The position numbers and the translations under genes are program-made. The notes under the pieces are model-generated. The model saw only the letters and a list, made by a program, of their open reading frames with translations. It did no database searches and was not told the origin of the DNA. From Microbacterium sp. W4I4 (GTDB taxonomy: Bacteria; Actinomycetota; Actinomycetes; Actinomycetales; Microbacteriaceae), in contig NZ_JAUSXT010000001.1 in assembly GCF_030816235.1 (NCBI RefSeq), positions 3,771,515 to 3,835,514 on the forward strand: a stretch of DNA of 64,000 bases, read 5' to 3'. Below, in pieces: positions 43,849 to 58,935 of this stretch (its first letter is position 1; the number at the start of each line of letters is the position of its first letter).

Positions 43849-44898
43849 GTGTCAGACTCTCCCGAAACACCCCAGATCACCCCGGAGGCGGTGGAGTCCG
43901 CCGTCGACGCCGCACTCGTGGCGATCGCGGCGGCATCCGATACCGCAGAGCTGAAGGCCGCCCGCGCCGCGCACGTCGCCGAGGGCTCGCCACTGGCCGT
44001 GCTGAACGCCTCGATGCGTCAGGTCGCTCCCGAGCACAAGGCCGCATTCGGCAAGCTCGTCGGACAGGGCCGGGGCAAGGTCACGCAGGCGCTCGCCACC
44101 AAGGAGGCCGAGCTCGCCGAAGCAGAGATCGCCGCACGCCTGGAAGCGGAGCGCGTCGACATCACCGCCGTCGCCTCGCACTCGCGCGTCGGCGCCCGTC
44201 ATCCGATCTCCCTCATGCAGGAGCAGATCAGCGACATCTTCGTCGGGATGGGCTGGGAGATCGCGGAGGGCCCCGAGCTCGAGCACGAGTGGTTCAACTT
44301 CGATGCGCTGAACTTCGACGAGGACCATCCCGCGCGCCAGGAGCAGGACACGTTCTACGTCGATCCCGTCTCCCGCCATCTCGTGATGCGCACGCACACC
44401 AGCCCGGTTCAGGTGCGCTCGATGCTCGACCGCGAACTGCCGATCTACGTGCTCTGCCCCGGGCGCGTGTACCGCACCGACGAGTTCGATGCGACGCACC
44501 TGCCGGTGTTCACGCAGTTCGAGGGGCTCGTCATCGACAAGGGCATCACGATGGCGCACCTGAAGGGCACCCTCGACCACGTGGCCAAGCAGATGTTCGG
44601 AGCCGAGGCGAAGACCCGGTTCCGCACGAACTACTTCCCGTTCACCGAGCCCTCCGCGGAGCTCGACCTGTGGCACCCCACTTTCAAGGGCGGGGCGCGC
44701 TGGATCGAGTGGGGCGGATGCGGGATGGTCAACCCCAACGTGCTGCGCGCGGCGGGCATCGACCCCGAGGTGTACAGCGGGTTCGCGTTCGGCATGGGCG
44801 TCGAGCGTGCGGTGATGTTCCGCAGCGATGTGAAGGACATGCGCGACATGGCCGAGGGTGATGTGCGCTTCAGCGAGCAGTTCGGGATGGTGGTGTGA
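43849..44898 (+). CDS. pheS: Phenylalanyl-tRNA synthetase alpha subunit
   Basis: A 349-residue class II aminoacyl-tRNA synthetase subunit. It has the N-terminal coiled coil that binds tRNA, motif 1 (HPISLMQEQISDIFVGMGWEI), motif 2 (VLCPGRVYRTDEFDATHLPVFTQFEGLVID) and motif 3 (AFGMGVERAVMFR). GTG start eight bases after TAGACT, suggesting a leaderless mRNA; no attenuator leader is seen. The stop shares a base with pheT. Confidence 0.97.
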   Translation: MSDSPETPQITPEAVESAVDAALVAIAAASDTAELKAARAAHVAEGSPLAVLNASMRQVAPEHKAAFGKLVGQGRGKVTQALATKEAELAEAEIAARLEAERVDITAVASHSRVGARHPISLMQEQISDIFVGMGWEIAEGPELEHEWFNFDALNFDEDHPARQEQDTFYVDPVSRHLVMRTHTSPVQVRSMLDRELPIYVLCPGRVYRTDEFDATHLPVFTQFEGLVIDKGITMAHLKGTLDHVAKQMFGAEAKTRFRTNYFPFTEPSAELDLWHPTFKGGARWIEWGGCGMVNPNVLRAAGIDPEVYSGFAFGMGVERAVMFRSDVKDMRDMAEGDVRFSEQFGMVV

Positions 44899-47405
44899 TG
44901 CGCGTTCCGCTTTCCTGGCTGCGCGAGTACGTCGAGGTCGCAGCGGATGCGACGCCGGAGGACGTCCTGGCGTCCTTCGTGTCGGTCGGCTTCGAAGAGG
45001 AGGACATCCACCGCTTCGAGATCTCCGGTCCCGTCGTCGTCGGGCAGGTCCTCGAGCTCACCCCCGAGCCGCAGAAGAACGGCAAGACCATCAACTGGTG
45101 CCAGGTGGATGTCGGCGAGGCGAACGGCGGCATCCGCGGCATCGTCTGCGGCGCGCACAACTTCGTCGTCGGCGACAAGGTCGTCGTGACCCTGCCCGGC
45201 GCGGTGCTGCCAGGGCCCTTCCCGATCGCCGCTCGCAAGACCTACGGACACGTCTCCGACGGCATGATCGCCTCGGCTCGCGAGCTGGGCCTGGGCGACG
45301 AGCACGACGGCATCATCGTGCTCTCCACGCTGGGACTCGACCCCGAGGTCGGCACGGATGCCATCGGCCTGCTGCACCTGGACGATGTGGCCGTCGAGAT
45401 CAACGTCACCCCCGACCGCGGCTACGCGTTCTCGCTGCGCGGTGCGGCACGCGAGTACTCGCACGCCACCGGAGCCGAGTTCCGCGACCCGGGCGTGCGC
45501 GACTTCGCCGAGCTGCAGCCCGGCTCCGGCTTCGCGATCACGGTCGACGACCGCAGCCCCATCCGCGGCAACGTCGGCGCCCGCGAGTTCGTCGCGCGCG
45601 TCGTGCGAGGAGTGGACCCGTCCCGGCCCACGCCGCCGTGGATGATCGCCCGACTGGGCCTTGCAGGCATGCGCTCGCTGGGCGTGCTCATCGACATCAC
45701 CAACTACGTGATGCTCGAGCTCGGCAACCCGATCCACGGCTACGACCTCGACAAGCTGCAGGGCGGCATCGTCGTGCGCCGCGCGACCGAAGGCGAGCGG
45801 ATGACGACGCTCGACGGACAAGAGCGCGCGCTGCACACCGAGGACCTGCTCATCACCGACGGCTCCGGCCCGATCGGCCTCGCCGGTGTCATGGGCGGCG
45901 GCGCCACCGAGATGAGCGGCACCACCCGCAACGTGCTCATCGAGGCGGCCTCCTTCGACCCGATCACGATCGCTCGGTCGGCCCGGCGGCACAAGCTGCC
46001 GAGCGAGGCGTCCAAGCGCTTCGAGCGCGGCGTCGACCCGCTGATCCCGTTCGTCGCCGCCCGCCGTGTCGCCGACCTGATGGTCGAACTCGCCGGCGGC
46101 ACGCTCACCGACGAGGGCGGTGCGCTGTACGCCGACGTGGACATCGCCGGCATCGACCTGCCCCGCGGCTTCACGCAGGGCCTGATCGGCGTCGACTACA
46201 CCGATGGCGAGATCACCGGCGCCCTCGAGATGGTCGGCGCGGAGATCACCTCCGTCACCGACACCGGATGGCATGTCATCCCGCCCAGCTGGCGTCCCGA
46301 CCTCACCGACAAGTGGACGCTCGTGGAGGAGGTCGCGCGCATCCACGGGCTCGACCGCATTCCGTCCGTGCTGCCCACCCCGCCGTCCGGACGCGGCTAC
46401 ACCGCTCTGCAGCAGGGACGCAAGCGCGTCGCGGACGCCCTTGCCGCGGCCGGTTTCATCGAGACCCCGGCGTTCCCGTTCACCACTGAGGAGCAGAACG
46501 ACCTGCACGGCTCCGCCGCGGGAGAGCACCAGCCCAGCATCCGTCTGGCGAACGCGCTCGACGGGCAGGCGCCGTACCTGCGGCGTTCGCTGGTGCCGGG
46601 CCTGCTGCAGACCGCGCACCGCAACATCTCCCGTGGGCTCGTGGACCTGGCGATCTTCGAGACCGGCGCCGTCTTCGCCCCTGAGGAGGGCGTCGGCTAC
46701 GGCACCGACTTCATCCCGCCGATGGCGCAGCGCCCGAGGGCGGAGACCCTGGACGCGCTGAACGCGGCGATCCCGCCGCAGCCTCGTCACGTGGCGGTGC
46801 TGCTCACCGGCAACGCCGTACCGCGCCAGCCGGGCCGTGCGGCCGAGCACGCGAGTCTCGGCGACGCGCTGGACGCGGTGCGCGTGATCGGCGTCGCGGC
46901 CGGCGTCGGCATCGACGTCGCGCAGACGCAGCGTGCCGCGCTGCACCCGGGGCGCGCGGGCGTCCTCAGCGTGCGCGGCGAGGAGGTCGGCTACGTCGGC
47001 GAACTGCATCCGCAGGTGTCGGCGGATGCCGATCTGCCCGGACGCGCCATCGTGCTGGAGCTCGACCTCGACCGCGTGCTGACTCTGGCGGGGGAGCGGG
47101 TCGTCGCGGCATCGCTGTCGACCTTCCCGGCCGCCACGCAGGACGTGTCCCTGGCAGTGGATGCCGGGATCGCGGCATCCGAGGTTCGTACGGCGCTCGT
47201 CGAGGGTGCGGGCGAACTGCTCGAGTCGGCGACCCTGGTCGACGACTACCGTGGCACCGGACTCGATGAGGGGCAGAAGAGCCTGACGTTCGCGCTGCGA
47301 TTCCGCGCCGCCGACCGCACTCTCACCGCGGCGGAGGCGACCGACGCGAAGCTCGCCGGGGTGGCGGTGGCCGCCGAGCGCTTCGGCGCCGCCATCCGCG
47401 ACTGA
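44898..47405 (+). CDS. pheT: Phenylalanyl-tRNA synthetase beta subunit
   Basis: An 835-residue beta subunit with editing activity. N-terminal tRNA-binding (EMAP-like) domain, B5 domain, B3/4 editing domain (about residues 210-370, including MLELGNPIHGYDLDKL), a catalytic-like fold with RRSLVPGLLQTAHRNI, and the C-terminal FDX-ACB domain (STFPAATQDVSLAV ... LVDDYRGTGLDEGQKSLTFALRF). ATG 44898 overlaps the pheS stop by one base; a GTG three bases earlier is less likely. A 14-bp terminator follows. Confidence 0.97.
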   Translation: MRVPLSWLREYVEVAADATPEDVLASFVSVGFEEEDIHRFEISGPVVVGQVLELTPEPQKNGKTINWCQVDVGEANGGIRGIVCGAHNFVVGDKVVVTLPGAVLPGPFPIAARKTYGHVSDGMIASARELGLGDEHDGIIVLSTLGLDPEVGTDAIGLLHLDDVAVEINVTPDRGYAFSLRGAAREYSHATGAEFRDPGVRDFAELQPGSGFAITVDDRSPIRGNVGAREFVARVVRGVDPSRPTPPWMIARLGLAGMRSLGVLIDITNYVMLELGNPIHGYDLDKLQGGIVVRRATEGERMTTLDGQERALHTEDLLITDGSGPIGLAGVMGGGATEMSGTTRNVLIEAASFDPITIARSARRHKLPSEASKRFERGVDPLIPFVAARRVADLMVELAGGTLTDEGGALYADVDIAGIDLPRGFTQGLIGVDYTDGEITGALEMVGAEITSVTDTGWHVIPPSWRPDLTDKWTLVEEVARIHGLDRIPSVLPTPPSGRGYTALQQGRKRVADALAAAGFIETPAFPFTTEEQNDLHGSAAGEHQPSIRLANALDGQAPYLRRSLVPGLLQTAHRNISRGLVDLAIFETGAVFAPEEGVGYGTDFIPPMAQRPRAETLDALNAAIPPQPRHVAVLLTGNAVPRQPGRAAEHASLGDALDAVRVIGVAAGVGIDVAQTQRAALHPGRAGVLSVRGEEVGYVGELHPQVSADADLPGRAIVLELDLDRVLTLAGERVVAASLSTFPAATQDVSLAVDAGIAASEVRTALVEGAGELLESATLVDDYRGTGLDEGQKSLTFALRFRAADRTLTAAEATDAKLAGVAVAAERFGAAIRD

Positions 47406-47417
47406 CGTCGTCCGTCC

Positions 47418-47455
47418 GAGACCCCTCCCGACCCCTGTGGATCGGGAGGGGTCTC
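47418..47455 (+). terminator. Terminator of pheST
   Basis: GAGACCCCTCCCGA (47418-47431) and TCGGGAGGGGTCTC (47442-47455) pair exactly over 14 bases. The next promoter (TAGAGT, 47460-47465) lies five bases on. Confidence 0.9.
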
Positions 47456-47471
47456 GTCGTAGAGTCGGGGG

Positions 47472-47900
47472 ATGAGCGACTATCAGGTGACCGAGATCGG
47501 TGCGCTGGAAGACTGGCGGACCTTCCACGGCGGCTTCGACGAATCGCGGTCTCGCGACGGCCGTCGCGTCGTCGATCACGAACTGACGATGCAGTACATC
47601 GGCATGACCGCCAACGCCCTCGTGCCTGGCGAGGAGGCCGGATACTGGCACGTGCACGAGAAGATCGAGGAGATGTACGTGTTCCTCGGGGGTCGTGGCC
47701 AGATGGGGCTGGACGACGATGTCGTGGATGTCGCGGAGGGAACCGTCGTGCGCGTGGGACAGGGCGTCTGGCGAACCTGGCGCGCACTGCCGGACAGCCC
47801 CGGCGAGCTGCGCTGGCTGTGCATCCGCGCTGGCGGCGAGAGCCTGCCGCACCTGCCCGATGACAGCAGGCGCGGACCGGATCGCCCGATGCCCTGGTGA
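47472..47900 (+). CDS. Cupin-domain protein
   Basis: A 142-residue single-domain cupin. The first cupin motif is GYWHVHEKIEEMYVFLGGRGQMGL, with metal-ligand histidines and glutamate. The second is weaker around EGTVVRVGQGVWRTWRALPDSPGELRWLCI, where the usual histidine is replaced, so metal binding may be incomplete. The substrate is unknown. TAGAGT ends six bases before the ATG. It stands alone between pheST and the epimerase gene. Confidence 0.8.
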   Translation: MSDYQVTEIGALEDWRTFHGGFDESRSRDGRRVVDHELTMQYIGMTANALVPGEEAGYWHVHEKIEEMYVFLGGRGQMGLDDDVVDVAEGTVVRVGQGVWRTWRALPDSPGELRWLCIRAGGESLPHLPDDSRRGPDRPMPW

Positions 47901-47954
47901 CCTGCGCTTCGCTGTCGGCTGATTCGCTTCCGTCCGGCGCCTGATCGTGCTGGC

Positions 47955-48947
47955 ATGGGCGTCATGACTCAGGTGCTGGTGCTCGGTGGAACAGGATGGC
48001 TCTCGGGACGGATCGCCGAGCGCTGGCGGGATGCCGGTGCGCGCGTCACCTGCGTGGCGCGAGGCGACCGGCCGGCACCGGAGGGCACGGTGCTCGTCCG
48101 CGGAGATCGGGACCAGGGCGCCTACGACGCTCTGATCGGGCAGCACTGGGACGAGGTCGTGGACATCTCCTCGACGGCGCGGCACGTGCGCGAGGCCGTC
48201 GCGGCGCTCGGCGACCGCGCCGGGCACTGGACCTACGTGTCGTCCATGTCCGTGTACGACGAGGACGAGACCATCGGACTCGACGAGACCGGGCGCCTGC
48301 TCGCGCCGGCTCAGGACGGCGACGAGTACGACTACGGTCGCGAGAAGGTCGCGGCCGAGCAGGCGGTGCGCACCCTGGGCGAGCGCGCGTTCATCGTCCG
48401 TCCCGGTCTCATCACCGGGCCCGGCGATCCGAGCGACCGATTCGGCTACTGGGCGGCGGCCGCAGACCGTGCCGGAACAGGGCCGATCCTCGTCCCGGAG
48501 CGCGGCGATCGGTACGTGCAGGTCATCGACGTCGACGACCTCGCCGACTTCCTCGTCGTCGACGGGCGGCAGGGCGTGGTCAACGCCAACGGCGACGTCC
48601 ATCCCTTCCTGGACGTGCTGGAGCGCATCCGAGCGCTCGTCGGGCACACCGGCGAGCTGGTCGAGGCGCCGGACGCCTGGCTCGAGGAGCACGGGGTGCG
48701 GTACTGGATGGGGGAGCGCTCCCTGCCGCTGTGGCTGCCCGCCGACATGCCCGGTTTCACCCGGCGCCGCAACGACGGCTACCGCGCGGCCGGCGGCGCG
48801 GTGCGATCGCTCGATGAGACGATCCGCCGGGTGCTCGACGACGAACGGGCGCGGGGTGTGGACCGTGAGCGTCGCGCAGGGCTGTCCCGCAGCGACGAAC
48901 TGGAGCTGATCGACGCATTGCGCGGCCAGGGGGCGCACGCTCGCTAG
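47955..48947 (+). CDS. NAD(P)-binding epimerase/dehydratase-like protein
   Basis: A 330-residue extended short-chain dehydrogenase-like protein. It has the nucleotide-binding VLVLGGTGWLSGRIAERW at the N-terminus, VVDISSTARHV and WTYVSSMSVYD, and the YxxxK pair as DYGREKVAAE, so a catalytic tyrosine and lysine are present. The substrate is unknown. A weaker in-frame ATG is at 47964. Its stop codon TAG is part of the next -10 box (TAGACT, 48945-48950). Confidence 0.82.
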   Translation: MGVMTQVLVLGGTGWLSGRIAERWRDAGARVTCVARGDRPAPEGTVLVRGDRDQGAYDALIGQHWDEVVDISSTARHVREAVAALGDRAGHWTYVSSMSVYDEDETIGLDETGRLLAPAQDGDEYDYGREKVAAEQAVRTLGERAFIVRPGLITGPGDPSDRFGYWAAAADRAGTGPILVPERGDRYVQVIDVDDLADFLVVDGRQGVVNANGDVHPFLDVLERIRALVGHTGELVEAPDAWLEEHGVRYWMGERSLPLWLPADMPGFTRRRNDGYRAAGGAVRSLDETIRRVLDDERARGVDRERRAGLSRSDELELIDALRGQGAHAR

Positions 48948-48954
48948 ACTCGCA

Positions 48955-49033
48955 GCCAGTGACACGGGGTGCCGCATCCGCGGCTGAGAACAGACCCGTC
49001 GAACCTGATCTAGTTCGTACTAGCGAAGGGATG
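48955..49033 (+). ncRNA. TPP riboswitch (THI element)
   Basis: The thiamine pyrophosphate aptamer is recognised by ACGGGGTGCC, CGGCTGAGA, the ACCCGTCGAACCTGATCTAGTT core and TACTAGCGAAGGGA, in the usual order. It starts right after a TAGACT promoter and ends just before thiM, so it probably controls translation start or early transcription of thiM and the fusion gene behind it. Confidence 0.95.
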
Positions 49034-49038
49034 TCGCA

Positions 49039-49899
49039 ATGAGCGATACGCCATGCCTGCCCGCCGAAGGGCGCCCGTCCACCGATGTCGCGGCGTCCGC
49101 CGCCCAGTTGCTGAGCCGACTGCGGTCCGCACCGCCGCTCACGCACTGCATCACCAACTCCGTGGTGACCGGATTCACCGCGAACGTGCTGCTCGCGCTG
49201 GGGGCGGCGCCGGCGATGGTCGACATCGTCGATGAGTCCGGGATGTTCGCCGCCGCGGCATCCGGGCTGCTGATCAACCTCGGAACACCGACGCCCGAGC
49301 AGCGCGCCGCGAGCCGCGAAGCCGCGCGGGGAGCGGTCGCGGCCGGAACACCCTGGGTTCTCGACCCCGTCGCGATCGGCGCTCTGCCCGTGCGCACACG
49401 GCTCGCGGGCGAGCTGGTCGCACTGCGGCCCACCGCGATCCGCGGCAATGCCTCTGAGATCCTCGCGCTGGCGGGCCTCGGCGACGGCGGACGCGGTGTC
49501 GACGCCACCGACACTCCGGATGCCGCGGCCGCCGCGGCACGCGCACTCGCCGCGCGCTGGGGGAGCACGGTCGCCGTGTCCGGCCCGGTCGATCTGATCA
49601 CCGATGGGCGCCGCGTCATCCGCATCGCCAACGGCGACGCCCTGCTGACCCGGGTCACCGGTGGCGGCTGCGCGCTCGGCGCCGTCATGGCCTCGTTCCT
49701 CGGCGCCGCCCGCGGCAGCGGCACAGACGTCCTCACCGCGGTCGCGGCGGCGTCTCTGGTGTACACCGTGGCCGCCGAACGCGCCGCGGCGACCGCACCC
49801 GGACCGGGCAGCTTCGCGGTGGCACTGCTCGACGCGCTCGATGCGGTCGACTCCGACGAGATCCTCGCCGCAGCACGGGTCGAGGAGGTCGCGCCGTGA
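49039..49899 (+). CDS. thiM: Hydroxyethylthiazole kinase
   Basis: A 286-residue ribokinase-like enzyme that phosphorylates salvaged 4-methyl-5-(2-hydroxyethyl)thiazole. It has [28 protein letters not shown] at the N-terminus, the SGLLINLGT segment, [12 protein letters not shown] and the anion-hole block [18 protein letters not shown]. Controlled by the TPP riboswitch. Its stop overlaps the thiE-thiD-tenA gene by four bases. Confidence 0.95.
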
Positions 49900-52019
49900 A
49901 CAGCGACATCTCACTGCATCTCGTGACCGATGCCGCACTCTGCGGCGAACGCGGCGTCGTCGCCACGGTCGACGCCGCTGTCGCCGGTGGCGTCGCGGTC
50001 GTGCAGCTCCGCGACAAGACGGCGACCGATGCCGAGACGGTGGACCTGCTCGTGCAGCTCTCGCAGATCATCGACGGTCGCGCCCTGCTCGTGGTGAACG
50101 ACCGGCTGCCTGCGGTCATCGACGCCCGCGCGCGGGGCGCACGCGTCGACGGGGTGCATCTCGGGCAGTCGGACATCTCCGTCGAGCGCGCGCGTGCCCT
50201 GCTGGGACCGGATGCCCTCATCGGACTCACCGCGAACACTCCCGCGCATCTCGACGCTCTGCGCGCCCTGCCGGAGGGGACCGTCGACTACATCGGCGTC
50301 GGAGTCATCCGACCGACCTCGACGAAGCCCGATCATCCGCCGGCACTCGGCGTCGACGGATTTCGTGCGCTCGCCGCATCCAGCCCTGTCCCCGCCATCG
50401 CCATCGGCGGAATCGGCCGGGACGACGTCGCAGCGCTCCGCGATGCCGGTGCGGCAGGCGTCGCCGTGGTGTCGGCGCTGTGCGCCGCCGATGACCCGCA
50501 GATCGCGGCGCGCGCGTTCCGTCGTGAATGGCGACGGGACAGGCCGCCGAGAGTGCTGAGCATCGCCGGCAGCGACCCGTCCGGCGGGGCGGGCATCCAG
50601 GCCGATCTGAAGTCCATCGCCGCCCACGGCGGCTACGGGATGGCGGCGATCACGGCGCTGACCGCGCAGAACACCCGCGGCGTGAGCGGCGTGCACGTGC
50701 CCCCGGCGTCGTTCCTGCGCGCGCAGCTCGACGCGCTCGCCTCCGACATCGACATCGACGCGGTGAAGATCGGGATGCTGGCGGATGCCGAGATCATCCG
50801 CACCGTCAGCGACTGGCTCACCGCCCACCGGCCGGACACCGTCGTGCTCGACCCGGTGATGGTGGCCACCAGCGGAGACAGGCTGCTGGATGTCGACGCC
50901 GAGACGGCGCTGCTCGAGCTCGCGCGCCAGGCGGATCTGCTCACCCCGAACCTCGGCGAACTCGCCGTGCTCGCCGGGCGTCCTCTCCACACGTGGGCCG
51001 ACGCCCTCGTCGCGGCGCAGGAGGTGGCGGCGCTCACCGGGGCGCTCGTGCTCGCCAAGGGCGGTCACCTGCCGGGCGATGAGACACCGGACGCCCTGGT
51101 CGGCTCGGCCGGCGTTCTCGCCGAGTACCGTGGACGGCGCATCGAGACGACCAGCACGCACGGCACCGGATGCTCGCTCTCCTCGGCCCTCGCCGCCACG
51201 CGCGCCCGGGGCATGGACTGGGTGCAGGCAGTGGAGCACTCGCGGGCGTGGCTGCGCGAATCGCTGAGCGCAGCCGATGCGCTCGACGTCGGTCGCGGTC
51301 ACGGCCCCATCAGTCACTTCGCCGGGCTGTGGCAGCGCGGCGGACTGGCCGCACGGCCCCACGCGGATGCCGTCCGCGAGGACTGGTGGAGCGGCATCGC
51401 CGACATCCGGCGGGACATCGACGACCTGCCCTTCATCCGCGGGCTCGCCGACGGCACCCTGAGCCGTGAGCGTTTCCTGAGCTACCTCGCGCAGGACGCC
51501 CTGTATCTGCAGGAGTACGCCCGTGTGCTCGCCGAGGCCGCGCGGCTCGCACCCACCCCGCAGGAGCAGGCGTTCTGGGCGGCATCCGCGCAGGGCGCCA
51601 TCGCGGGAGAGGTCGAGCTGCATGCGTCCTGGATCACGCCGGGCGCCGGCGTCTCGGCGACGACGTTCGCCGCTGCGGCCGACGCCACCACCACGGCTTA
51701 CCTGGATCATCTGCGTGCCGTGGCGTTCGGCGGGGACTACGCCGTGCTCATCGCCGCGCTGCTCCCGTGCTTCTGGCTGTACACCGACCTGGGGGTGCGC
51801 CTGCAGGCGGGGGAGTTCGGCGATCGGACGCACGATCCGCGGCATCCGTACTCGTCGTGGCTGGCCACCTATGCGGATCCGGCGTTCGCCGCCGCATCCG
51901 AGCACGCGATCGGTCATGTGACGCGGGCGGCGGCGCAATCGGACGAGGATCGGCGCCGACGCATGCATCGGGCGTTCGCCGCATCGGCCGCGCACGAGCG
52001 GGCGTTCTTCGACCGGTGA
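49896..52019 (+). CDS. thiED: ThiE-ThiD-TenA trifunctional fusion
   Basis: A 707-residue fusion. Residues about 1-213 are thiamine-phosphate synthase ThiE ([39 protein letters not shown]). About 218-475 are HMP/HMP-P kinase ThiD ([47 protein letters not shown]). About 490-707 are TenA-type thiaminase II ([33 protein letters not shown] with the cysteine expected to be catalytic). Together with ThiM it joins salvaged pyrimidine and thiazole to thiamine phosphate. ThiC, ThiG and ThiS are not here, so this cluster serves salvage and late steps. Confidence 0.95.
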
Positions 52020-52025
52020 CGGGAC

Positions 52026-52050
52026 CGAGGGCATGTGACGCCCTCGATTT
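52026..52050 (+). terminator. Terminator of the thiamine operon
   Basis: CGAGGGC (52026-52032) and GCCCTCG (52040-52046) form a 7-bp stem with a 7-base loop, followed by ATTT. It ends at the -35 box of the next promoter. Confidence 0.7.
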
Positions 52051-52078
52051 GCGGATGCGGCGGAATCGGCGCTACTGT
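52049..52078 (+). promoter_or_regulatory. Promoter of the Arg-rich leader ORF
   Basis: TTGCGG (52049-52054) and TACTGT (52073-52078) are separated by 18 bases. TACTGT ends six bases before ATG 52085, the spacing seen for other leaderless starts in this window. Confidence 0.55.
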
Positions 52079-52084
52079 CACGGC

Positions 52085-52162
52085 ATGCCTTCGGTCGCCT
52101 CGCTCCCGCTCCACTCGAGCGTCGCAGACGTGCGCCGACGCCGCCTCGGCCGCCGATTCTAG
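52085..52162 (+). CDS. Candidate arginine attenuation leader peptide
   Basis: A 25-codon ORF not preceded by any gene but by its own promoter. It reads MPSVASLPLHSSVADV and then RRRRLGRRF before TAG, so six of the last nine residues are arginine (codons CGC CGA CGC CGC ... CGC CGA). An Arg-dense tail just before the stop, 103 bases upstream of argC, is the classic form of an amino-acid attenuator. GCGTCG (52119-52124) can pair with CGACGC (52136-52141) over the first Arg codons, and GGTCGCC (52093-52099) with GGCGACC (52162-52168) past the stop. argC also has its own -10 box, so attenuation is a proposal, not shown. Confidence 0.6.
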   Translation: MPSVASLPLHSSVADVRRRRLGRRF

Positions 52163-52192
52163 GCGACCCCGCGCAGCCTGAGCCGTCGTGGC

Positions 52193-52265
52193 TCGAGGTC
52201 GAAGCCGGTGTCGCCGCCCCGGCCAGGCCCGTCATCGGGCGCACCTCGACCGTTAAGGTAGAACC
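52193..52265 (+). promoter_or_regulatory. Structured argC upstream region and argC promoter
   Basis: TCGAGGT (52193-52199) pairs with ACCTCGA (52243-52249). Inside are GCCGG/CCGGC (52204-52208 with 52219-52223) and GCCCG/CGGGC (52227-52231 with 52236-52240). TAAGGT (52254-52259) lies six bases before the argC ATG, marking a leaderless argC start. There is no U-tract, so any termination would need to be of another kind. Confidence 0.45.
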
Positions 52266-53321
52266 ATGACGTATTCCGTCGCCGTCTCCGGCGCATCCGG
52301 CTATGCGGGAGGCGAGATACTGCGGATCCTCGCAGCTCACCCCGACATCGAGATCCGCACCGTCACCGCGCATTCCAACGCAGGACAGCCGCTGATCGAG
52401 CACCAGCCGCATCTGCGCTCGCTGGCGCACCTCACCCTGCAGGACACCACTCCGGAGATCCTCGCCGGGCACGACATCGTGTTCCTCGCCCTGCCGCACG
52501 GCCAGTCCGGGCAGTACACGGATGCCCTGGGCGACACCCCGTTGGTCATCGACGCCGGCGCCGACCACCGGCTCACCTCCCAGGACTCCTGGGACGCCTT
52601 CTACGGCGGCGCATTCCACGAGCCGTGGGCCTACGGTGTGCCTGAACTGCTCACCGACTCGGGTGCCAAGCAGCGCGAGGTGCTGCGCACCGCGACGCGC
52701 ATCGCCGCGCCCGGCTGCAACGCCTCGACGGTGAGCCTCAGCCTCGCTCCCGGCGTCGCCGCCGGTGTGATCGACCCCTCCGACATCGTCAGCGTGCTGG
52801 CTGTCGGCCCCTCGGGGGCGGGCAAGAGCCTGAAGACCAACCTGCTCGCATCCGAGGTCCTCGGCACCGCCAATCCCTACGCGGTGGGCGGCACGCACCG
52901 GCACATCCCCGAGATCAGGCAGGCGCTCGCCGCGGCCTCCGGGGTCGCCGGCGAGAGCATCCGCATCTCGTTCACTCCGGTGATCGTGCCGATGGCGCGG
53001 GGCATCCTCGCGACCTCCACCGCGCCCATCGCCGAGGGCGCCACCGACGTGCAGATCCGCGACGCATGGCAGAGCGCCTACGGCGACGAGACCTTCGTGC
53101 ACCTGCTGCCCGAGGGGCACTTCCCCCGCACGGCGGACGTGCTGGGTGCGAATACCGCACTCATGGGCCTGGCGATCGACCGGGCGGCGAACCGCGTCGT
53201 CGTGGTGACCGCCGTCGACAATCTCGTCAAGGGGACCGCCGGCGCCGCCGTGCAGTCCATGAACCTCGCGCTGGGCCTCCCCGAGGACCGCGCCCTCACC
53301 GTGAACGGAGTGGCGCCGTGA
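52266..53321 (+). CDS. argC: N-acetyl-gamma-glutamyl-phosphate reductase
   Basis: A 351-residue NADPH-dependent reductase of the linear arginine pathway. It has the nucleotide-binding [17 protein letters not shown], the catalytic cysteine block [16 protein letters not shown], and [13 protein letters not shown] 52266 lies six bases after TAAGGT. First gene of argC-J-B-D-F-H; all junctions overlap by four bases, so the operon is translated as one coupled unit. Confidence 0.96.
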
Positions 53322-54475
53322 GCGTGACCGCACCCCAGGGATTCGAAGCAGCCGGCGTCGCCGCAGGGTTGAAGAGCACAGGCAAGTCCGACGTCGCCGT
53401 CGTCGTCAACCGCGGCCCCCGCAAGGTCGGCGCGGCCGTGTTCACCACCAACCGGGCCAAGGCCAACCCGATCCTGTGGTCGCAGCAGGTCATCGCCGAC
53501 CGCACGGTCGAGGCGATCGTGCTGAACTCCGGCGGGGCGAACTGCTTCACCGGCGCGTTCGGCTTCCAGACCACGCACCTCACCGCGGAGAAGACCGCTG
53601 AGCTGCTCGGCGTGAGCGCAGGCGACATCCTGGTGTGCTCGACCGGTCTGATCGGCACCGGCGACGAGGTGTTCCGCGGCAAGGTGCTCGACGGCGTCGA
53701 GCAGGGCATCGCCGCGCTCAGCATCGACGGCGGGACCGCCGCCGCCGAGGCGATCATGACCACAGACACGGTCTCGAAGACCGCGGTGGTCGCGCAGGGC
53801 GGCTGGACGATCGGCGGCATGGCCAAGGGTGCGGGAATGCTCGCGCCGGGACTCGCGACCATGCTGGTCGTCATCACCACGGATGCCGACCTGGAGGCCT
53901 CCGAGGCGGATGCCGCGCTGCGCAGGGCCACCAACGTGAGCTTCGACCGCCTCGACTCCGACGGCTGCATGTCCACCAACGACCAGGTCACGCTCCTGGT
54001 GAGCGGTGCCAGCGGCATCCGCCCCGACCTCGACGACTTCACCGCCGCGCTCACCGAGCTCTGCCGTGAGCTGGCGCAGAAGCTGCAGACGGATGCCGAG
54101 GGCGCCAGCCACGACATCACGATCGAGGTCAAGAACGCCGCCACCGAGGAGGAGGCCGTCGAGGTCGGACGGTCCGTGGCACGCAACAACCTCTTCAAGG
54201 CCGCGATCTTCGGCAACGACCCGAACTGGGGCCGCGTGCTCGCCGCCATCGGCACCACGAGCGCGCAGTTCGACCCCTACGACGTGGACGTGTCGATGAA
54301 CGGCGTGCGTGTCTGCTCGGCGGGCGGTCCCGACCGCCCCCGCGAGGACGTGGACCTCACCCCGCGCGCCATGCACCTCGAGATCGACCTGAAGGCCGGC
54401 GACATCACGGCCACGATCCTCACCAACGACCTGACCCACGATTACGTGCAAGAGAACAGCGCCTACGCCTCATGA
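53318..54475 (+). CDS. argJ: Bifunctional ornithine acetyltransferase ArgJ
   Basis: A 385-residue ArgJ that transfers acetyl groups from N-acetylornithine to glutamate, closing the acetyl cycle; many members also make N-acetylglutamate from acetyl-CoA. The autocleavage site is in [16 protein letters not shown], where cleavage occurs before the Thr. [16 protein letters not shown] and [13 protein letters not shown] are typical. GTG 53318 overlaps the argC stop; the frame is open far upstream but those starts lie inside argC. Confidence 0.96.
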
Positions 54476-55371
54476 CGGATCTGCAGGACACCGCACCCGA
54501 GGAGGCCGCCGTCAAGGCCGCCACCCTCATCGAGTCGCTGCCGTGGCTGAAGCGCTTCCGCGACCAGATCGTCGTGGTCAAGTACGGCGGCAACGCCATG
54601 GTCAGCGAAGAGCTGCAGGACGCCTTCGCCCAGGACATCGCCTACCTGCGCTACGTCGGCGTGCAGCCGGTGGTCGTGCACGGCGGCGGCCCGCAGATCT
54701 CTCAGATGCTGGACCGTCTCGCGATCCCCAGCGAGTTCAAGGGCGGCTACCGCGTCACCAACACCGAGGCGATCAGCGTGGTGCGGATGGTGCTCACCGG
54801 GCACGTCAACCCCACGCTCGTCGCGAAGATCAACTCGCACGGGCCGATCGCCACAGGGCTCAGCGGTGAGGACGCCGGCCTGTTCGGCGGGCGTCGTCGC
54901 GGCGTGATCGTCGACGGCGAGGAGGTCGATCTCGGCCGCGTCGGCGACGTCGTCCAGGTCGACCCGACCCCCGTGATCGATCACCTGACCGCCGGGCGCA
55001 TCCCCGTGGTCTCCTCGATCGCCCCCGATCTCGACCACCCCGGTCAGTCGCTGAACGTCAACGCCGATGCCGCGGCCGCGGCGCTCGCCATCGCGCTGGG
55101 CGCACGCAAGCTCGTCATCCTCACCGACGTCCCGGGGCTCTACGCCGACTGGCCGAACCGCGAGTCGCTCGTCTCGCACATCACCTCCAGCGCACTCACC
55201 GAGATGCTGCCCTCGCTGGAGTCGGGGATGATCCCGAAGATGCGCGCCTGCCTCGACGCCGTCGAGAACGGCGTGGATGCCGCGGCCATCATCGACGGGC
55301 GGGTGCCGCACTCGGTGCTCGTCGAACTGTTCACCAGCAAGGGAATCGGCACGGAAGTGGTCGCACAATGA
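54472..55371 (+). CDS. argB: Acetylglutamate kinase
   Basis: A 299-residue amino-acid-kinase-family enzyme phosphorylating N-acetylglutamate. It has VVKYGGNAM, the glycine-rich [23 protein letters not shown] and [11 protein letters not shown]. Length and N-terminal extension fit the arginine-inhibited hexameric form. ATGA overlaps on both sides. Confidence 0.96.
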
Positions 55372-56569
55372 ACGACTGGAACGACGACGCGGCACGCGAT
55401 CTGATGAGCCTGGGCGGGCGCCTCGCGCTGCTCACGCACGGCGACGGCTCCTGGGTCTACGACGCCGACGAGAACCGGTACCTGGACTTCCTCGGCGGCA
55501 TCGCCGTGAACTGCCTCGGCCACGCCCACCCCGTGTTCGTGGAGGCCGTCTCGCGTCAGGCCGCCACGCTGTCGCACGTGTCGAACTACTTCGCGACCCC
55601 CGGTCAGCTCGAGCTCGCCGCGCGTCTGAAGCGCCTGGCCGGCACCGGGGAGCAGGGACGGGTGTTCCTGGCGAACTCGGGCACCGAAGCGAACGAGATG
55701 GCGATCAAGCTGGCGCGCCTGCACGGTCAGCCATCCGGTCGCACCACGATCCTCGTCCTGGACGGCGCCTTCCACGGTCGCACCATGGGCACGCTGTCGC
55801 TGACGCCGAAGGCCATGTACCGCGACCCGTTCCTGCCGGCCGTGCCCGACGTGGTCACCGTGCAGCACTCGCTCGAGAGCCTCGAGGCGGCCTTCGCCGC
55901 AGGCGGCGTGGCTGCGATGATCGTCGAACCCATCCAGGGCGAGGCGGGTGTCGTCGAGTTGCCCGAGGGATTCCTCGCCCGGGCTCGCGCCCTCGCCACC
56001 GCGCACGATGCGATGCTCATCCTCGATGAGGTGCAGACCGGTTCCGGGCGCACCGGGGAGTGGTTCGCCTTCCAGCGCGAGGGGATCGTGCCGGACGCCA
56101 TCACGCTGGCCAAGAGCATCGGCGCCGGCTTCCCGCTCGGCGCGCTGATCACGTTCGGCGCCGCCAGCGATCTGTTCTACCCCGGCACCCACAACTCCAC
56201 CTTCGGCGGCAACCCGCTGGCCAGTGCCGTGGCGAACGCCGTCCTCGGCCACATCGAGGACGAGCACCTCCTCGAGAACGTGACGGCCAGGGGAGCCCAG
56301 CTCCGCGAGGGCGTCGCGGGGCTCCCGCTGGTCGAGGGCACCACCGGTGCGGGACTGCTGATCGGCATCCGCCTGTCCGCCCCGGTCGCCGCCGAGGTGC
56401 GCGAAGCCGCGCACGAGCGCGGACTGATCATCAACGCGCCCACCGCCGATGTGATCCGCATCGCACCCGCTTTCACCATCGGCGATGCCGAGGTGGCCGA
56501 GTTCCTCACGCTCTTCCGCGCTGCACTCGACACCGTCGCATCCGCACACGACACCATGGAGACCCCCGC

Positions 56570-56573
<4 letters not shown>
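55368..56573 (+). CDS. argD: Acetylornithine aminotransferase
   Basis: A 401-residue class III PLP aminotransferase. It has [20 protein letters not shown], the [15 protein letters not shown] block, [17 protein letters not shown] and the PLP lysine in [16 protein letters not shown]. It converts N-acetylglutamate semialdehyde to N-acetylornithine. ATGA overlaps with argB and argF. Confidence 0.96.

Positions 56574-58935
<2,362 letters not shown>

Follow-up and report, generated by a model that had tools for sequence, protein, structure and literature searches.

What controls the arginine operon in a bacterium in which the customary arginine repressor cannot be found? In bacteria, control of arginine synthesis is usually ascribed to ArgR, and the question is raised by the window analysed here, a 64,000-nucleotide stretch of a 3.84 Mb genome whose nearest argC loci come from Microbacterium. 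Pfam assignments across positions 52266–58935 give the gene order argC, argJ, argB, argD, argF, argH, bearing out the operon argCJBDFH that an initial sequence-only reading had placed downstream of a short Arg-rich ORF. Its first gene, argC, occupies 52266..53321 on the plus strand (PF01118/PF22698). Within the window, pheT (44898–47399) lies 4.9 kb upstream of argC, and the interval between them (47400–52019) holds a TPP riboswitch (48955–49048, RF00059) along with genes for a hydroxyethylthiazole kinase and a ThiE-ThiD-TenA triple fusion (49896–52019).

Two sets of relatives were used for comparison. Of 516 confirmed argC loci, the best 80, mostly Microbacterium, form the close set together with the window itself (81 sequences). 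The family sample comprises 120 Microbacteriaceae genomes from 78 genera. Of these, 116 carry argC and 110, the own genome included, were examined upstream of it, the six weakest matches being left out. A search with the N-terminal domain model of ArgR (PF01316) finds no match in the own genome or in any of the 120 family genomes, and ArgR control, named as usual for bacteria in the sequence-only reading, therefore looks unavailable in this family. At the level of the order, PF01316 is present in 268 of 297 genomes, and among the misses listed (20 of 29) all 20 are Microbacteriaceae. Sites resembling an ArgR box, sought with a pattern written from outgroup sequences and the general ArgR motif, occur before argC in 0/110 family genomes and 0/81 close sequences, versus 17 of 20 order relatives outside Microbacteriaceae, where by eye they mostly lie over the argC -10.

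The region upstream of argC contains instead a 25-codon ORF (52085..52162, plus strand; MPSVASLPLHSSVADVRRRRLGRRF), running from ATG to TAG and ending 103 nt before argC, with six Arg among its final nine residues; translation, conservation and a shuffle test support its assignment. The hexamer TACTGT (52073..52078, plus strand) is positioned as a -10 element six bases 5′ of the leader ATG, a spacing that suggests a leaderless start, in which transcription would begin at the ATG itself. A -35-like TTGCGG (52049..52054, plus strand) lies at a spacing of 18 nt from this -10, and in 75 of the 81 close sequences a TTG is placed 15–26 nt upstream of the -10. The corresponding TANNNT box is separated from the leader ATG by 6 nt in 76 and 7 nt in 5 of the 81, leaders having been selected by this box, and it takes the form of 16 different hexamers across the set. 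Scanning with a strict sigma-70 consensus brings up no promoter at the leader, the ORF has no match in Pfam, and a search of 51900–52400 against Rfam 15 returns nothing up to E 1. The ORF, its own -35/-10 pair, the six-base spacing and the Arg run had all been claimed from the letters of this one sequence; each is confirmed, and the TANNNT box 6 or 7 nt from the leader ATG is conserved in 81/81. The absence of a U-tract terminator also holds up on comparison, a run of T4 or longer being absent from the leader–argC interval in all 137 leaders, and the G+C-rich hairpin followed by a U-tract that marks a classical intrinsic terminator is not found before the first gene.

A lack of conservation in close relatives had been named beforehand as grounds for refuting an attenuator, and the candidate withstands this check. 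All 80 best loci and the window have, before argC, an ORF rich in Arg that follows a TANNNT box and starts 132–213 nt from argC. The N-terminus of the leader drifts across the close set while the Arg run is kept, with RR...RR in 80/81 leaders and RRR-x(1-4)-RR in 69/81. Among the family genomes, a leader is found upstream of argC in 60/110, 57 by script and three by eye (G020, G029 and G090, which are clear but beyond the script's limits). Since Arg codons are GC-rich, short Arg-rich ORFs arise easily in DNA of this kind, and a chance ORF could be imagined on that ground. Conservation already refutes this explanation, to which next to no probability is assigned: under a stricter filter the leader is recovered in 81/81 sequences versus a mean of 0.1 (maximum 1) over 20 rounds of dinucleotide shuffling, the codon phase is fixed in 137/137 leaders, and only 3 of 2548 tiles from both strands of the window pass, all three being the argC leader ORF. 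Requiring in addition the stop-side motif described below leaves 76/81 leaders versus 0 in shuffles, and the wider family set gives 55/109 versus 0.35. Genome-wide, one exact pattern of the element matches at argC and at one opposite-strand site, the reversed control giving one match; no second Arg leader is seen by eye ahead of argG. Judged by sequence comparison, the leader before argC is real, conserved and arginine-specific. It is not the sole solution in the family, because 44/110 genomes have neither the leader nor the pheT-tail form discussed below, and ArgR was not found in the family either; at argC, these 44 show a -10-like box only (26), a Shine-Dalgarno-like motif (9) or neither (9).

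The codon usage of the leader provides insight into what might be sensed. Codons were numbered backwards from a CGA that is nearly invariant (136 of 137 leaders, 81 close and 56 wider). In the window this codon belongs to Arg run 2 (CGC CGA; 52151..52156, plus strand), and the proposed stall site is Arg run 1 (CGC CGA CGC CGC; 52133..52144, plus strand), where Arg is kept through synonymous changes. At codons -5, -6 and -7, Arg occurs in 106, 111 and 108 of the 137 leaders; position -4 has it in 62. The Arg codons at -5 to -7 are spelled CGC, CGT or CGA in varying order, and CGG accounts for only 3 of 325. Retention of Arg with synonymous exchange is what would be expected of an Arg sensor. 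One tRNA-Arg isoacceptor decodes CGU, CGC and CGA, and the low frequency of CGG fits sensing of that single tRNA. Of the Arg codons in the argC genes of the 80 loci, 31% are CGG and 2.8% CGA, versus 2.9% and 31% in the 81 close leaders and 7.2% and 24% in the 56 wider ones. Avoidance of CGG is not general, however, since it spells 14 of the 62 Arg codons at -4 and reaches 7% in the wider leaders. The fixed CGA beside the stop looks like a constraint on the RNA.

An RNA element is found beside the stop codon. The TAG at 52160–52162 leads straight into region 2 (GGCGACCCC; 52162..52170, plus strand), which begins in the stop codon and forms the 5′ arm of a helix with region 3 (GGTGTCGCC; 52207..52215, plus strand), a pairing also present in the single-sequence minimum free energy fold. 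The motif CG-N6-GGCG followed by a complementary stretch occurs in all 146 loci (81 close, 59 wider leaders and 6 pheT tails), the complementary stretch ending 24–58 nt past the 12-nt segment of region 2; for L046 and G008, region 3 was set by hand. Helix statistics were collected from 106 distinct pairs, with region 3 picked as the best helix and relatedness not modelled. Within these limits, 86% of cells are paired versus a shuffle mean of 81% (maximum 83%), double-changed cells number 61 versus 30 (maximum 42), and further pair types 25 versus 17 (maximum 21). Positions 1–4 are nearly invariant, and position 5 is unpaired in 20/106. Registers slid by one or two bases are paired in only 28–43% of cells, although double-changed cells still number 36 at +1 and 56 at +2, with 20 and 22 further types, respectively; it is therefore the pairing percentage, rather than the double-changed count alone, that singles out the register. 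Compensation is illustrated by G044 (GGCGTCGTC with GACGACGCC) and by L056 and L067 (GGCGGGTCGC with GCGGCCCGCC), and L045 gives a further example of the helix (GGCGACGCC with GGCGTCGCC). Taken singly, the sequences are less distinctive, at most 1 of 20 shuffles reaching the helix in only 107/146, and the stability of the window leader is not unusual (z -0.89). The several alternative stems that had been noted around the Arg codons and stop reduce to one covarying helix that is conserved across the family. A helix between run 1 and region 3, averaging 6.8 bp versus 5.9 in shuffles, was rejected as a conserved element because it is weak.

The placement of the stop codon relative to this helix bears on how a terminating ribosome might affect it. 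The stop overlaps region 2 in 102/137 leaders, and lies 10–16 nt past the region 2 start in 26 and 19–28 nt past it in 9, while the RNA element stays in place. Estimated from the general size of a ribosome footprint, a terminating ribosome would shield region 2 in the 102 and the 26 leaders but only partly in the remaining 9, which fit such a model less well because the ribosome would sit partly beyond region 2.

Between region 3 and the argC start lies a spacer (52216..52253, plus strand) that is C-rich and G-poor throughout the family and whose base composition makes it a candidate Rho loading site. C exceeds G in all 146 leader or pheT-tail loci, versus 11 of 44 family genomes in a non-leader control stretch that is often coding DNA; the spacer averages 44% C and 23% G, and a similar place in the 44 element-free genomes 32% and 36%. 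A composition rich in C and poor in G is characteristic of RNA on which Rho loads, and a rho gene is present. From these two observations Rho is the preferred candidate for the output step, an assignment that is possible but still doubtful.

How argC itself is started decides between several readings of the locus. The hexamer TAAGGT, with AAGG at 52255..52258 (plus strand), had been read as a leaderless -10 box of argC, and on that basis argC could be expressed from its own promoter with the leader of little effect. Consistent with this, TAAGGT or TAGGGT stands 6 nt (55 sequences) or 7 nt (26) before the ATG in the close set, a leaderless-type spacing, the largest group of non-leader family genomes (26/44) has only a -10-like box at this place, and 41 of the 66 genomes with a leader or pheT tail are compatible with either reading. 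The hexamer is, however, fixed in 80/81 close loci, unlike the leader -10 with its 16 forms, and in 16 of the 66 genomes the Shine-Dalgarno-like core is kept while TANNNT is lost (examples are AAAAGGAAC, GAAGGCCCC and CCAAGGAAG), versus 2 in which the reverse holds and 7 that show neither. TAAGGT is therefore better read as a Shine-Dalgarno sequence, probably its main role, with a double role possible, and control of argC by its own promoter alone is improbable. A Shine-Dalgarno-like motif precedes argC in 57/66 leader or pheT-tail genomes versus 9/44 others (Fisher p 4e-12). This association would also suit translational attenuation, in which translation of the leader opens or closes a structure hiding the argC Shine-Dalgarno, an architecture proposed for the actinobacterial LEU element of leuA (PMC1262725, in its treatment of that element). 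Folding of the 81 leaders with the ribosome blocked at run 1 or at the stop speaks against it, the Shine-Dalgarno being unpaired to 0.46 and 0.47, respectively, with openness rising in 16 and falling in 16 of the 81; the lack of a consistent effect led to rejection of Shine-Dalgarno sequestration. Nor does region 3 keep a constant distance from argC, the two being 36 to 81 nt apart in the close set. Translational attenuation is accordingly viewed as unlikely, though less so than a self-sufficient argC promoter.

A further reading places the signal in the peptide. When arginine is present, the arginine attenuator peptide of fungi brings the ribosome to a halt, and an Arg-rich peptide might do the same here; an R-x-R-R-like pattern is common near the leader C-terminus. 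Such nascent-peptide arrest is nevertheless very improbable: over the 14 codons up to the CGA no non-Arg residue is kept in more than 48/137 leaders (among the top four residues listed), the CGA is fixed at the nucleotide level, which points to RNA, and the rarity of CGG at -5 to -7 points to tRNA supply.

The best reading is thus ribosome-mediated arginine attenuation of argCJBDFH without ArgR, which is considered probable, and the ORF itself is very likely an Arg-sensing leader. The arginine attenuator leader peptide put forward in the sequence-only reading gains support from conservation, the Arg run and the covarying helix. The ORF, Arg run, 2:3 helix, C-rich spacer and lack of a detectable ArgR, all seen by comparison, may be joined in a scheme in which the leader peptide gene gauges arginine supply through ribosome speed. 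When charged tRNA-Arg is plentiful, the ribosome would reach the stop codon and, by its position, cover region 2; the 2:3 helix would then be blocked because region 2 is covered, leaving region 3 and the C-rich spacer single-stranded, and the operon would be turned down, most likely by Rho, at what is the weakest step of the scheme. When arginine is short, the ribosome would stall in run 1, 20–29 nt before region 2, allowing the 2:3 helix to form beside the stop codon while RNA polymerase continues into argC, which would be translated from its own Shine-Dalgarno. The 2:3 helix would accordingly represent the ON form, an assignment that is favoured with somewhat less assurance than attenuation itself. 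The direction of the response, the footprint geometry and the output step are what this scheme would add to the comparative data.

A variant of the element sheds light on its history. The end of pheT lies directly upstream of the leader or argC in 44/110 family genomes by script, including 14 of the 57 script-found leader genomes, and in G020 (L127) argC is preceded by a pheT tail as well as by a distinct Arg leader that bears the stop-side motif. In six genomes (G004, G080, G028, G095, G100 and G032) pheT is directly upstream of argC and the stop-side RNA motif lies inside the pheT end. In four of them, G004, G080, G028 and G095 (L141, L162, L178 and L185), TATGCT stands six bases before an in-frame GTG (GTG GAC), as if the PheT tail served as the leader ORF. 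The codon phase of region 2 equals that of the PheT tail (ER-F-G-A-T). Birth of the leader from the pheT 3′ end was considered and rejected, as a profile of 44 PheT tails scores the 137 leaders no better than shuffled sequences (the top leader reaches 5.9 bits, the top one of 2740 shuffled sequences 10.6). In a quickly built ArgC tree of 90 family and 20 outgroup rows, with many weak forks and root support 75, leaders turn up in each of the two large family clades; the pheT-tail forms fall inside leader-bearing groups and so, within the limits of those forks, look derived. No leader ORF is found in the 20 order relatives outside Microbacteriaceae, G165 giving a stray match to the stop-side motif. 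This distribution fits early gain of the leader followed by later losses, a single origin being left unproved by the ArgC tree. A more inclusive scenario can be put forward tentatively, and as unlikely to be correct in full: ArgR would have been lost family-wide, and a large part of the family would use a leaderless attenuator, built on Arg codons, that senses how far a single tRNA-Arg isoacceptor (the one decoding CGU, CGC and CGA) is charged and gates Rho through the stop-side hairpin, with the pheT 3′ end as leader ORF in one side branch.

Within one order, a DNA-binding repressor appears to have been replaced by a translation-based sensor, both states (ArgR and leader) persisting in families of that order. 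The 81 close and 65 wider loci constitute a natural set for leader-peptide regulation without intrinsic terminators in GC-rich actinobacteria, a question raised as well by the Cys and Leu leaders covered in PMC1262725. A search of titles and the starts of abstracts, with most subscription papers outside its scope, finds no arginine leader before Microbacteriaceae arg genes, and a term search of PMC4833913 gives no match. Seliverstov and others, in the relevant passages of PMC1262725, report no conserved RNA regulation before actinobacterial arginine operons in a set that includes Leifsonia xyli. Leader peptides of S. lividans, most of them reported to be leaderless, are described for Leu, Trp, Ile, Ala, Thr and Met in the pertinent portion of PMC8079986, arginine being unmentioned there.

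Among actinobacteria, several systems share the coding logic of the argC leader. Cys-rich leaderless short ORFs are known in mycobacteria (PMC4633059, PMC9031893; Canestrari 2020 via PMC9031893). These polycysteine ORFs, as outlined in PMC9031893, resemble the argC leader in being leaderless and actinobacterial and in repeating the product amino acid in a run, but they concern cysteine and other operons; the comparison covers the ORF. The LEU element likewise combines an actinobacterial leader with a run of product codons; in the structure put forward for it, the Shine-Dalgarno of leuA is paired with the Leu codons, and there is a pseudoknot (PMC1262725, section on LEU). In the argC leader, by contrast, it is the stop codon region that is joined, through the conserved helix, to a stretch ahead of the spacer, and pairing of leader codons with the Shine-Dalgarno is absent from an 18-sequence consensus fold. 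A LEU-type architecture was rejected on the lack of this pairing, on the difference from the own leuA leader and on the equal openness of the Shine-Dalgarno at both ribosome positions. The own genome carries, ahead of leuA (L085), a leaderless-type leader, MPLGGMLLLSCRDES, that resembles LEU element leaders. The trp attenuators of Corynebacterium and Streptomyces also couple a product codon run to a downstream helix, but the classical trp attenuators have a G+C-rich terminator with a U-tract (PMC1262725, as far as its trp section goes), and the argC leader has none.

The nearest mechanism is that of orf34 in the Salmonella speF leader, which likewise consists of a short ORF with consecutive Arg codons and a hairpin at the stop side (PMC6386406). 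Experiments described in the sections of that paper on this leader show that pausing at low arginine allows a hairpin past the stop to form and that reading on prevents it. Rho is involved at speF and is only a conjectured participant at the argC leader, and the Salmonella leader additionally employs sequestration of the ribosome-binding site, not seen at argC, and RNase G decay. The two also differ in their targets, orf34 controlling ornithine decarboxylase and the argC leader preceding arginine synthesis, and in their peptides, orf34 being a DUF2618 protein and the argC leader having no Pfam relative (PMC6386406 for the Salmonella side). A conserved run of product codons upstream of the pathway operon, as found here, probably places the locus in the broad and known kind of ribosome-mediated leader-peptide attenuation, of which, as far as sequence comparison can tell, an arginine leader before argC is a new instance.
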